DNA from: Skermanella mucosa
GTDB lineage: Bacteria; Pseudomonadota; Alphaproteobacteria; Azospirillales; Azospirillaceae
Direction: 5' to 3'
DNA: 64,000 nucleotides
Assembly: GCF_016765655.2 (NCBI RefSeq)
Contig: NZ_CP086106.1
Location: 4,081,001 to 4,145,000 of the forward strand
The notes under the pieces were generated by a model, which ran no database searches, was not told the origin of the DNA, and was given only the letters and a program-made list of their open reading frames with translations. The position numbers and the translations under genes were made by a program. Of this stretch, positions 5,282 to 53,167 are shown piece after piece (within the stretch, counting starts at the first letter, position 1; each line of letters starts with the position of its first letter).

Positions 5282-6244
5282 ATGACGAAATTCCTCCTCG
5301 CCGCGGCCGGCGTCGGCTCGCTGGCCGTCCTCAGCCTGTTCGTGGGGGCCACGCACCTGTCGCCGGCCACGCTGCTCGCCGCCGGGCCGGAGAGCGAGGC
5401 CATGCGGGTGCTGCTCGCCAGCCGCATCCCCCGGACGATCGCCGTGATCCTGTCGGGGATGGCGATGGGCGTCAGCGGCCTGATCATGCAGCTGATCGTG
5501 CGCAATCACTTCGTCGAGCCCGGCACGGCCGGGACGGTGGAGTCAGCGAGCCTCGGCATCCTGCTCGCGACGCTGCTGGCGCCCGGCATCGACCTGATCG
5601 GCAAGATGATGGTCGCGGCCCTGTGCGCCCTGGCCGGCACCGCCCTGTTCCTCGTCATCCTGAGCCGCATCCCGTTGCGCTCGGCCCTCCTGGTGCCGCT
5701 CATCGGCCTCATGCTGGGGGGGATATTCGACTCCGTCACGACCTTCTTCGCCTACCGCTACGACTTGCTGCAATCGCTGAACGCCTGGACCACGGGGGAT
5801 TTCTCCGGCGTCCTGCGCGGCCGCTACGAACTGCTCTGGATCGCCTTCGGCCTGACCGCCGCGGCTTACCTGGCGGCCGACCGCTTCACGGTGGCCGGCA
5901 TGGGCCGGGCCTTCACGACCAACCTGGGAATGAACTACCGGCGGGCCATGTCCTTCGGCCTGATCATCGTCTCCATGAGCACGGCCGTGGTCGTGGCGAC
6001 GGTGGGGACGATCCCCTTCCTGGGGCTGATCGTGCCGAACCTGGTCAGCATGGGCGTGGGCGACAACGCGCGCCGCGCGGTGCCCTGGGTGGCGCTGGGC
6101 AGCGCCGCGTTCGTCCTGGTCTGCGACCTGATCGGCCGCACCGTGCGCCACCCCTACGAGATCCCGGTGGGCACCATCGTCGGCGTCGTCGGGAGCGCGC
6201 TGTTCCTCTATCTCCTGCTCAGGAAGGGCGCCTCCGATGGTTAG
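5282..6244 (+). CDS. Siderophore ABC transporter permease 1 (FecCD family)
   Basis: 320 residues, with about nine hydrophobic segments. FecCD hallmarks are present: SRIPRTIAVILSGMAMGVSG near the N-terminus, TTGDFSG mid-protein, and VGTIPFLGLIVPNL before the ATPase-contacting loop, followed by RHPYEIPVGTIVGVVGSALF near the end. It forms the inner-membrane channel with the next gene product; the two reading frames overlap by 8 bases. Family knowledge assigns ferric-siderophore transport. Confidence 0.92.
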   Translation: MTKFLLAAAGVGSLAVLSLFVGATHLSPATLLAAGPESEAMRVLLASRIPRTIAVILSGMAMGVSGLIMQLIVRNHFVEPGTAGTVESASLGILLATLLAPGIDLIGKMMVAALCALAGTALFLVILSRIPLRSALLVPLIGLMLGGIFDSVTTFFAYRYDLLQSLNAWTTGDFSGVLRGRYELLWIAFGLTAAAYLAADRFTVAGMGRAFTTNLGMNYRRAMSFGLIIVSMSTAVVVATVGTIPFLGLIVPNLVSMGVGDNARRAVPWVALGSAAFVLVCDLIGRTVRHPYEIPVGTIVGVVGSALFLYLLLRKGASDG

Positions 6245-50846: not shown

Positions 50847-52022
50847 ATGAAAAACGCCAGTCCAGACACCATCCTGACCCATGCCGGCAACGACCCGCAG
50901 GCCAATTTCGGCATCGTGAACCCGCCGGTCTACCATGCCTCGACCGTGCTGTTCCCCACAGTGGCGGCGCTGGAGGAGGCCGGCCACTCGTTCGACGGCG
51001 TCCGCTACGGCCGCATCGGCACGCCGACCTCCCAGGCGTTCGAGGCGACGGTGGCCCGGCTGGAGGGCGGCTTCAAGGCCGTGACCGCACCGTCCGGGCT
51101 GGCGGCGATCTCGACGGCGCTGCTGGCCTTCGTATCGGCCGGCGACCACATCCTGGTCACCGACAGCGTCTACGGCCCGACCCGGCTGTTCTGCTCCGAC
51201 ATGCTGAAGCGGCTCGGCGTCGAGGCGGAGTTCTACGATCCCCTGGCCGGGGCCGGCATCGAGCGGCTGATCCGGCCCAACACCCGCGTGGTCTTCCTGG
51301 AATCGCCCGGCTCCCTGACCTTCGAGGTGCAGGACGTGCCGGCCATCGCCGCCGCCGCGAAGAAGGCGGGCGCCATCGTCATGATCGACAACACCTGGGG
51401 AACGCCGCTGTTCTTCAAGCCGTTCGACCACGGCGTCGACCTGTCGATCCACGCCGCGACCAAATACATGGTCGGCCACTCCGACGCGATGCTCGGCGTG
51501 ATCACCGCCGGCACGGAGGAGGTCTGGAACCGCCTGAAGCGCAACGCGGTGCAGCTCGGCACCTGCGCCGGGCCGGACGACGTCTATCTGGGCCTGCGCG
51601 GATTGCGCACCATGGGCGCCCGCCTCCGCCAGCACCAGGACACCGCCCTCGCCCTCGCCCGCTGGCTCCAGGCCCGGCCGGAGGTCGCCCGGGTGCTCCA
51701 CCCCGCCCTGCCCGACGATCCCGGCCACGCGCTCTGGAAACGCGACTTCACCGGCGCCTGCGGCCTGTTCGCGATCGAGCTGAAGCCCTGCTCCGCGGCG
51801 GCGGTCGCCAGCTTCCTCGACGGGATGGAGCTGTTCGGGATGGGCTACAGCTGGGGCGGCTACGAGAGCCTGATCCTGCCGATCCATCCGGAGAAGCTGC
51901 GCACCGCCACCCGCTGGCGCACCGACGGCCCCATGGTCCGGCTGCATGCCGGCCTGGAGGACCCGGACGACCTGATCGCCGACCTGGAGCGCGGGCTCGC
52001 CCGGCTGGCGGCCGCGGCATGA
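50847..52022 (+). CDS. metC: Cystathionine beta-lyase
   Basis: 391 residues from the ATG at 50847 (MKNASPDTILTHAGNDPQ). PLP Cys/Met metabolism motifs: YGRIGTPTSQAFEATVARLE, APSGLAAISTALLAF, IDNTWGTPLFFKPFDHGVD, and the PLP lysine in IHAATKYMVGHSDAM. It splits cystathionine to homocysteine, pyruvate and ammonia in methionine synthesis. Its stop overlaps the hisI start by ATGA. Confidence 0.9.
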   Translation: MKNASPDTILTHAGNDPQANFGIVNPPVYHASTVLFPTVAALEEAGHSFDGVRYGRIGTPTSQAFEATVARLEGGFKAVTAPSGLAAISTALLAFVSAGDHILVTDSVYGPTRLFCSDMLKRLGVEAEFYDPLAGAGIERLIRPNTRVVFLESPGSLTFEVQDVPAIAAAAKKAGAIVMIDNTWGTPLFFKPFDHGVDLSIHAATKYMVGHSDAMLGVITAGTEEVWNRLKRNAVQLGTCAGPDDVYLGLRGLRTMGARLRQHQDTALALARWLQARPEVARVLHPALPDDPGHALWKRDFTGACGLFAIELKPCSAAAVASFLDGMELFGMGYSWGGYESLILPIHPEKLRTATRWRTDGPMVRLHAGLEDPDDLIADLERGLARLAAAA

Positions 52023-52426
52023 CCATGGACGCCGGCACGCGCGAGGTGCTCGACCTCGTCAGCTTCGACGCCAACGGCCTGGTCGCCGCCGTCGCCCAGC
52101 AGCACGACACCGGCGAGGTGCTCATGCTCGCCTGGATGAACCGCGCCGCGCTGGAGGAGACGCTGGCGACCGGGCGCGTCTGCTACTTCTCCCGCTCGCG
52201 CGGCAAGCTGTGGCGCAAGGGCGAGACGTCCGGCCAGGTCCAGCACCTGAAGGAGCTTCGGGTCGACTGCGACGGCGATGCCGTGCTCCTCCTGGTCGAC
52301 CAGACCGGGGTCGCCTGCCACACCGGCCGGCGGAGCTGCTTCTACCGGGCCGCACGGCAGGGGGGCGTCGAGACCATCCTGGACGTGGAGGCGGACCCCG
52401 AGAACCTCTACGGGACGAAGGCCTAG
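52019..52426 (+). CDS. hisI: Phosphoribosyl-AMP cyclohydrolase
   Basis: 135 residues. HisI motifs: LAWMNRAALEETLATGRVCY, SRSRGKLWRKGETSGQVQ, the metal-binding DCDGDAVLLLVDQ, and CHTGRRSCFYR with its conserved Cys residues. It opens the ring of phosphoribosyl-AMP in histidine synthesis. It is co-translated with metC (ATGA overlap) and lacks a fused HisE domain. Confidence 0.95.
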   Translation: MTMDAGTREVLDLVSFDANGLVAAVAQQHDTGEVLMLAWMNRAALEETLATGRVCYFSRSRGKLWRKGETSGQVQHLKELRVDCDGDAVLLLVDQTGVACHTGRRSCFYRAARQGGVETILDVEADPENLYGTKA

Positions 52427-52541: not shown

Positions 52542-52581
52542 TTGATCTAGATCAAAGTAACGCCCGTCGCCCTGGTATAGA
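52542..52581 (+). promoter_or_regulatory. FNR/FixK-box promoter
   Basis: A perfect FNR/FixK/Anr box, TTGAT-CTAG-ATCAA (52542-52555), is followed by a -10-like TATAGA at 52576-52581. The box centre is about 40 to 41 bases before the expected start near 52588-52590, the spacing of class II FNR promoters. It points at the candidate small RNA, with no protein gene downstream on this strand before 53346. Induction by low oxygen is predicted. Confidence 0.65.
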
Positions 52582-52587
52582 AACACT

Positions 52588-52658
52588 CTTGTCTCTAACC
52601 CTCCCTGTAATCGCCTTTCAGCCAGAGGTTCTTCCAAGAACCTCTGGCCTTTTTCTTT
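52588..52658 (+). ncRNA. Candidate low-oxygen-induced small RNA
   Basis: Predicted transcript of about 70 bases, from an FNR-box promoter to a strong intrinsic terminator. The single-stranded 5' half is pyrimidine-rich and holds ACCCTCCC (52598-52605), complementary to Shine-Dalgarno sequences, as in trans-acting sRNAs that block ribosome binding. The 3' half is the terminator hairpin with a U-run, which could suit Hfq. No start codon with a sizeable frame is present. Promoter, length and function are all inferred. Confidence 0.6.
52621..52658 (+). terminator. Rho-independent terminator
   Basis: GCCAGAGGTTCTT and AAGAACCTCTGGC form a perfect 13-base inverted repeat separated by CC, followed by CTTTTTCTTT. 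This is among the clearest intrinsic terminators in the window. It ends the candidate small RNA and any read-through from hisI. Confidence 0.9.
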
Positions 52659-52721: not shown

Positions 52722-52750
52722 CAAAAAAGAGGTGACAGCAAGCTGTCACC
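52722..52750 (-). terminator. Rho-independent terminator, minus strand
   Basis: A perfect 9-base inverted repeat, GGTGACAGC-AA-GCTGTCACC (52731-52750), is followed on the minus strand by TC and six T (52728-52723). It would stop transcription from the small membrane-protein gene at 52934-53167, about 180 bases after its stop, or an unrecognised minus-strand RNA in that interval. Confidence 0.8.
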
Positions 52751-52933
52751 CGAGGCGAATGCGCGATGAGTAGAGGATGCGAACGGACCTTCACTGCCAT
52801 GGGCTCTCAGTGCAGGTCAGGTCATGTTCCGGTCGCAGGTGTAAATTAACCATAACACGCCAACCCGGACACTGCGCACCCGGAGCATCACAGGTTTGTC
52901 ACACTACCCATGAATTAGCCATGATTCACCCGG

Positions 52934-53167
52934 TCAGCGCCGCCCGAGATAACGCAGCAGGGCCGCCACCAGCGCCAGGGGAACGACCACGACCGCGCCG
53001 ACCAGGACATAGGGAAGCGCCCATTCCGCGACCCCCGCGAACAGGCCGAAGACATCCAGCACGGTGTCCCAGGTGTCGTGGAGAATGCCCATCGGTTCGA
53101 TGTCGAGGAAGGACAAGGCCAGCCCGACGACTAGGGAAAGCACGATGATTCTGACGATCCAATTCAT
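52934..53167 (-). CDS. Small membrane protein (DUF6460-like)
   Basis: 77 residues. Two hydrophobic segments (about residues 3-19 and 50-71) flank a helical LDIEPMGILHDTWDTVLDVFG stretch (quoted in part). The pattern fits small alphaproteobacterial proteins that I recall as DUF6460. It ends in a basic tail, RYLGRR. It stands alone, with a minus-strand terminator downstream. Function unknown. Confidence 0.75.
   Translation of the reverse strand: MNWIVRIIVLSLVVGLALSFLDIEPMGILHDTWDTVLDVFGLFAGVAEWALPYVLVGAVVVVPLALVAALLRYLGRR

Follow-up and report, generated by a model that had tools for sequence, protein, structure and literature searches.

The locus lies in a 64-kb window (the whole stretch of DNA that was analysed) of Skermanella, family Azospirillaceae, between two predicted protein-coding genes. 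Upstream on the plus strand is hisI (positions 52019–52426; NCBIfam 176 bits, cut-off 126; Pfam PRA-CH), which encodes phosphoribosyl-AMP cyclohydrolase, and downstream on the minus strand is a gene for a DUF6460-like small membrane-type protein (52934–53167; Pfam DUF6460, 23.8 bits, cut-off 26.7). An FNR/FixK-type box, TTGATCTAGATCAA, begins 115 nt past the hisI stop codon on the same strand (52542–52555, centre 52548.5). A preliminary description of this DNA had called the box a perfect TTGAT-N4-ATCAA. The match was indeed exact, and it was the sole one without mismatches in the window, the 10 other matches having 2 mismatches each. As also described, a TATAGA −10 hexamer (52576–52581, plus strand) lies between the box and the predicted start of transcription. 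We placed this start at 52588–52590 from the spacing of the box and the −10 hexamer; with a start at 52590, the centre of the box is at −41.5, as in class II promoters activated by FNR, and the distance of TATAGA from the start is the usual one.

The predicted small RNA (52590–52658, plus strand) would be ~67–70 nt long and would end in a T-run at ~52653–52658, an extent that was also based on the terminator and the conserved unit. Its 5′ part contains a core, GTCTCTAACCCTCCCTGT (52591–52608), that is unpaired in the predicted fold and is presumed to be the targeting region. Inside this core is the anti-Shine-Dalgarno stretch ACCCTCCC (52598–52605), in line with the motif reported earlier for the 5′ part of the RNA. 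An intrinsic terminator stem-loop (52621–52648) is directly followed by the T-run CTTTTTCTTT (52649–52658), all of these elements being on the plus strand. The terminator had a folding energy of −21.9 kcal/mol (z = −5.3), and none of 200 shuffled sequences was equally stable. The preliminary description had proposed an RNA of about 70 bases ending at a 13-bp terminator with a T-run; the length and the T-run were borne out, whereas the minimum-energy fold gave a stem of 12 bp with a loop of 4. No protein gene was evident on the plus strand just downstream, as had been claimed; the DUF6460-like gene, the likely next one, is encoded on the minus strand.

Inspection of the region downstream of the terminator revealed a second conserved sRNA-like element on the minus strand (52723–52920), convergent to the FNR-box sRNA. 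It consists of CGCATCCTCTACTCATCGCGCATTCGCCTC, in which ~30 nt were invariant in all five Skermanella genomes, and, after it, a GGTGACAGC hairpin with a T-run; upstream, a GTGACAAACCTGTGA block is conserved and had changed little. This element could be an sRNA of its own or else the 3′-terminal part of the transcript of the DUF6460-like gene.

The surroundings of the sRNA were partly shared with Azospirillum. In one Azospirillum locus (L062), two sRNA copies are situated between a hisI-like gene and a small gene similar to that of the DUF6460-like neighbour. A protein similar to the DUF6460-like one is also encoded beside the sRNA copies in a second locus (L055), where copies flank an 8-kb segment with ABC-transporter genes and hisI, identified by likeness to genes of the window. 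This arrangement is consistent with an inversion.

We examined the distribution of the element by several searches. A nucleotide search detected the locus in 9 of 39 genomes, including its own, although four of these were short matches around the core alone. The core was found with up to 2 mismatches in 53 of the 82 genomes of the family. A pattern that demanded the box and MCCTCCCTR 34–52 nt later, and nothing else, matched 57/82 family genomes from 9 of 13 genera, with 1–4 matches per genome and 121 in total (summed), including 44/45 Azospirillum and 5/5 Skermanella genomes. The other 25 family genomes had no match to this pattern. The reversed control gave no match in any of the 82 genomes, and GTCTC or ATCTC was present in the listed matches although the pattern demanded neither. 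An order-wide repeat of the search, in which the same number of genomes was examined, again gave 57/82.

The converse approach started from the core. Of 142 core matches (summed), 115 were in the places that were fetched, and the remaining 27, all two-mismatch matches elsewhere, were left out. In each of the 115 copies an FNR-type box with no more than 2 mismatches started 47–50 nt before GTCTC (66 exact, 45 with 1 mismatch and 4 with 2). Because these copies were chosen by the core rather than the box, the near-invariance of their core is biased. A box of this quality at the same spacing occurred in ~0.13% of trials with mononucleotide-shuffled upstream sequence, compared with 115/115 observed, and none of 9 sampled look-alikes from among the 27 had a box at 47–50 nt. 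Given these shuffles and the empty reversed control, we rejected the possibility that the box is a chance match. Information content across the 115 copies was also raised around the −10 position.

Most Azospirillum genomes contain 2–4 tandem or nearby sibling genes. One locus (L060, cores at 5650–6130) carries four tandem units whose boxes have 0, 0, 1 and 2 mismatches; tandem boxes of such graded quality constitute a natural series for box strength. Outside the family, four of the 17 f16 genomes searched had divergent copies. A class-wide search that also demanded TCTC matched 5 of 385 genomes, 2 of them outside the family. Variant cores with a box and a terminator were found in f16 (L105) and in f87 (L106); divergent copies are thus present in these two other families.

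Comparison of the five Skermanella genomes showed where the sequence had been held constant. All 14 positions of the box were invariant, as were 5/6 positions of the −10 hexamer, 31/33 of the 5′ part of the RNA, 20/28 of the terminator and 6/10 of the T-run. By comparison, 5/20 positions were invariant in the spacer between box and −10 hexamer, 30/140 in the upstream flank and 8/71 in the downstream flank. The sequence of the terminator stems varied between relatives with pairing mostly kept: for 9 of 10 consensus pairs, both sides had changed with pairing retained in at least 1 of 38 relatives, and individual pairs were broken or gapped in 0 to 10 of the 38 rows. Whether close relatives conserve the box, the seed and the terminator had been set beforehand as a check on the preliminary description, and the 57/82 genomes, the 115/115 boxes and the five Skermanella genomes answered it strongly in the affirmative. 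With its own promoter signals, a terminator with a T-run and conservation in relatives, the locus has the features of an intergenic sRNA gene with an intrinsic terminator. We are nearly certain from these comparisons that a conserved sRNA gene of the FNR/FixK-controlled type, for which Rfam holds no family, is real.

We also considered whether the transcript could be translated. The only frequent start codon was a TTG right at the 5′ end, which 74 of the 115 copies have and 41 lack; in 49 of those 74, its frame had no stop codon within the stretch read. This TTG is too near the predicted 5′ end to leave space for a ribosome-binding site. Insertions or deletions of 1–2 bases distinguish related cores, so that no reading frame is kept. 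A coding role was judged unlikely on these grounds. Since the TTG is missing in 41 copies, there is no room for a ribosome-binding site and the core has undergone indels, the RNA is much more likely to be non-coding than coding.

The next question concerns the protein that would act at the box. Crp/Fnr relatives share boxes of the TTGAT-N4-ATCAA type, and 20 places in the genome of the window matched HTH_Crp_2 (PF13545). One of the encoded proteins (L150) carries CGACPVRTLTVC in its N-terminal part, together with another cysteine and an ETVSR recognition helix; its best NCBIfam match was FnrL (191.5 bits, cut-off 300). We take this combination of cysteine cluster and ETVSR helix to be that of FnrN/FnrL proteins, and the helix presumably is the one expected for a TTGAT half-site. 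A second protein (L151) is FixK-like, with 173.8 bits to Caulobacter FixK (cut-off 300), and is without the N-terminal cysteine cluster. With the start of transcription predicted as above, the intergenic RNA is preceded by an FNR-type box at class II spacing. The gene is very probably controlled by a protein of the Crp/Fnr type, and both FNR-type control and an sRNA of ~67–70 nt, as originally proposed, are well supported by the sequence. We envisage that, when oxygen is low, the box near −41.5 would be bound by an activator of the FNR type, most likely L150 with its likeness to FnrN/FnrL or else a FixK-like relative, which would recruit RNA polymerase by class II activation. Alternatively, the activator of the box-controlled RNA could be an NO sensor of the DNR/NnrR type, or a FixK that reports oxygen through its level and not through a cluster of its own, and the RNA would then belong to a nitrosative or denitrification response. 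The sharing of the box among Crp/Fnr relatives, the 20 HTH_Crp_2 places and the FixK-like L151 without the cysteine cluster all leave room for this explanation, but L150 combines the cysteine cluster with the helix that we would expect for the TTGAT half-site, and we regard a different activator as unlikely.

Candidate targets of the core were sought by complementarity. In the five Skermanella genomes, the 14-nt complement AGGGAGGGTTAGAG (up to 2 mismatches) occurred 69 times compared with 116 for the reversed control; it was rarer than the control. The shorter AGGGAGGGT was found shortly before ATG 42 times versus 12 for the control in the five Skermanella genomes, and 119 versus 20 times in 15 Azospirillum genomes. 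These counts include some sites twice, and the excess is confounded because ordinary Shine-Dalgarno sequences alone would give it. One AGGGAGGGT...ATG match was present in all five Skermanella genomes (L199, L201, L205, L213 and L221). We rejected it as a target because, in each of the five, the complementary strand encodes MVFADPPYNLQLGG, presumably the DPPY motif of DNA methyltransferases.

The gcl gene for glyoxylate carboligase (NCBIfam, 1031.8 bits) had AGGGAGGGT 5–7 nt before an ATG in all four Skermanella genomes that have gcl; in the fifth, no gcl was found at the strict threshold of E ≤ 1e-150. At this threshold gcl was present in 44 of 81 genomes, and AGGGAGGGT occurred in the leaders of four of the 44 genes, all from Skermanella, and was absent from the other 40. 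In the genome of the window, the predicted duplex with gcl had an energy of −30.1 kcal/mol, compared with a mean of −17.4 and a best value of −26.1 for 47 genes of the window, and it was stronger than those of all 500 shuffled seeds. We regard gcl as a candidate target limited to this lineage. Among the hits read, a solute-binding protein gene (L219; Pfam SBP_bac_1) was another candidate in the same genome, and a near-identical leader was present in a second genome (G002). The candidates among the hits read in the 15 Azospirillum genomes encode a 52-aa protein with no Pfam match (4 genomes), YccF (3), MgtE (3), DUF1328 (3) and a DmsC-type protein (1). No candidate site common to Skermanella and Azospirillum was seen among the hits read.

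In the mechanism that we propose, the 5′ 30 nt of the RNA would be single-stranded, and the strong terminator and U-tail would suit binding by Hfq, on which the RNA may depend. The UCUCUAACCCUCCCUGU stretch would then pair with G-rich ribosome-binding sites and block translation of a set of mRNAs that are not wanted at low oxygen. We lean towards repression at ribosome-binding sites as the function of the core. A rather improbable alternative is that no mRNA is silenced in this way and that the core acts as a decoy towards a protein or another sRNA, pairs with just one target that is essential, or, less likely still, belongs to a leaderless peptide, for which the 5′ TTG in 74/115 copies could speak. 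The lack of a site common to Skermanella and Azospirillum in the hits read and of any enrichment of long complementarity would fit such a role, but the core resembles an anti-Shine-Dalgarno sequence and is unpaired, and AbcR1/2 of Sinorhizobium are described in an excerpt of PMC8844928 as repressing through motifs of this kind. The most ordinary explanation, a hisI terminator accompanied by a chance box and promoter-like words, would suit the position of the element on the hisI strand 115 nt past the stop codon, but it is hardly credible when box, spacing and core are kept together in tandem copies, a copy in L055 lies at the end of the 8-kb segment that is remote from hisI, and box and core are constant while flanks diverge and the 9 core look-alikes elsewhere have no box at 47–50 nt. 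The whole is probably best explained by a stand-alone trans-acting sRNA that is activated at low oxygen by an FNR-type protein and silences mRNAs at their ribosome-binding sites.

Azospirillum, well known as a nitrogen-fixing genus, and its relatives inhabit root zones and soils with swinging oxygen, and nitrogen fixation needs low oxygen. A conserved family of sRNAs under FNR-type control would add a post-transcriptional layer to the low-oxygen switch. Literature searches gave no description of the FNR-box sRNA among the matches listed (titles and the starts of abstracts), and the excerpts of PMC4842269 and PMC5107571 held nothing pertinent to it. As tabulated in an excerpt of a study of Azospirillum brasilense Sp245 sRNAs (PMC7685610), 3 of 59 RNAs were under 100 nt, and 2 of these matched tRNAs. 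What appears to be new is a low-oxygen analogue of FnrS, often present as tandem siblings in Azospirillum, with a core that resembles SorX and SorY below their cut-offs.

To place the element among known sRNAs, we compared it with Rfam. In the window, none of 4227 families gave an sRNA match at the gathering score, the only match being a distant tRNA. With E values up to 10, the stretch gave four local matches, all far below their cut-offs and none to FnrS, SorX or SorY. One was suhB/mmgR (RF00519; 13.3 bits, E 4.3, cut-off 41), which we take to be an alphaproteobacterial sRNA with a pyrimidine-rich anti-Shine-Dalgarno-like stretch, as here; membership was rejected on the score. Membership in the FnrS family was likewise rejected, Rfam presumably containing an FnrS model. 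The preliminary description had assigned the locus to the design of the FnrS class. The FNR-type promoter on an sRNA gene is indeed common to both, but with no Rfam match homology to E. coli FnrS is unsupported, and the RNA is at most an analogue. FnrS is ~120 nt long. The Skermanella RNA is shorter (~67–70 nt), has no detectable covariance-model similarity to FnrS, carries its anti-Shine-Dalgarno core at the 5′ end and has tandem siblings in Azospirillum. It looks as though the FnrS design was invented here independently for a second time, in a form convenient for testing: the copies number 1–4, and box and core are both fixed. According to excerpts of PMC8139620 and PMC8595263, FNR induces FnrS in Escherichia coli and Salmonella at low oxygen, and FnrS acts on genes that are dispensable without oxygen.

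Sibling sRNAs with anti-Shine-Dalgarno motifs are known from other systems. According to the excerpt of PMC8844928, the homologous siblings AbcR1 and AbcR2 (alpha-r15) of Sinorhizobium use such motifs to repress translation; unlike the Skermanella RNA they have two of them, are 121 and 114 nt long and are driven by LsrB and RpoH1. NmsRA/B of Neisseria meningitidis are also tandem siblings with anti-Shine-Dalgarno motifs (excerpt of PMC5362039), but they are under the stringent response and belong to another class of bacteria.

SorX and SorY of Rhodobacter sphaeroides (RF02784 and RF02651) resemble the element in a CUCCCUGU stretch, a short linker and a G+C-rich terminator, as seen in alignments. 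One Azospirillum copy scored 13.0 bits with SorX (cut-off 46.6) and 14.6 bits with SorY (cut-off 111). Neither family was listed for the stretch of the window and this copy was below both cut-offs; we rejected membership. SorX is processed out of a 3′ UTR and SorY is transcribed from a promoter of its own, both acting in oxidative stress (excerpt of PMC6238624), whereas the Skermanella-type RNA has an FNR-type promoter instead.

A model (R1) built from 38 of 48 listed sequences gave weak matches class-wide in 141 of 385 genomes (E ≤ 0.01), which we did not count as family members. Of 30 such loci fetched (L100–L129), the match itself was viewed for 28, L114 and L115 being left out. L100–L102 were members of the family, and L104, L105, L106 and L111 were divergent members with core and box; L112 and L119 were assigned to no group. 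By eye, ~18 loci (L103, L107–L110, L113, L116–L118 and L120–L128) carried another widespread alphaproteobacterial element with CCTCCCTGTTA or a similar sequence, a GGCCGG hairpin and a T-run. It follows a LysR-type gene in 4 of 6 loci inspected (L128, in which the protein was identified by Pfam, and L117, L118 and L120, by likeness), and the element of L128 scored 25.3 bits with SorX, under the cut-off.

Because both the FNR-box sRNA and the LysR-linked element are like SorX/SorY, the comparison suggests a targeting module shared by all of them under different signals. It is possible, though we hold it only tentatively, that the unnamed sRNA family forms the low-oxygen branch of a targeting module shared within the Alphaproteobacteria, in which CUCCCUGU, linker and terminator have been wired to an FNR box. 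If true, one pairing surface would be read under opposite oxygen signals and would have been multiplied to 2–4 siblings in most Azospirillum genomes.
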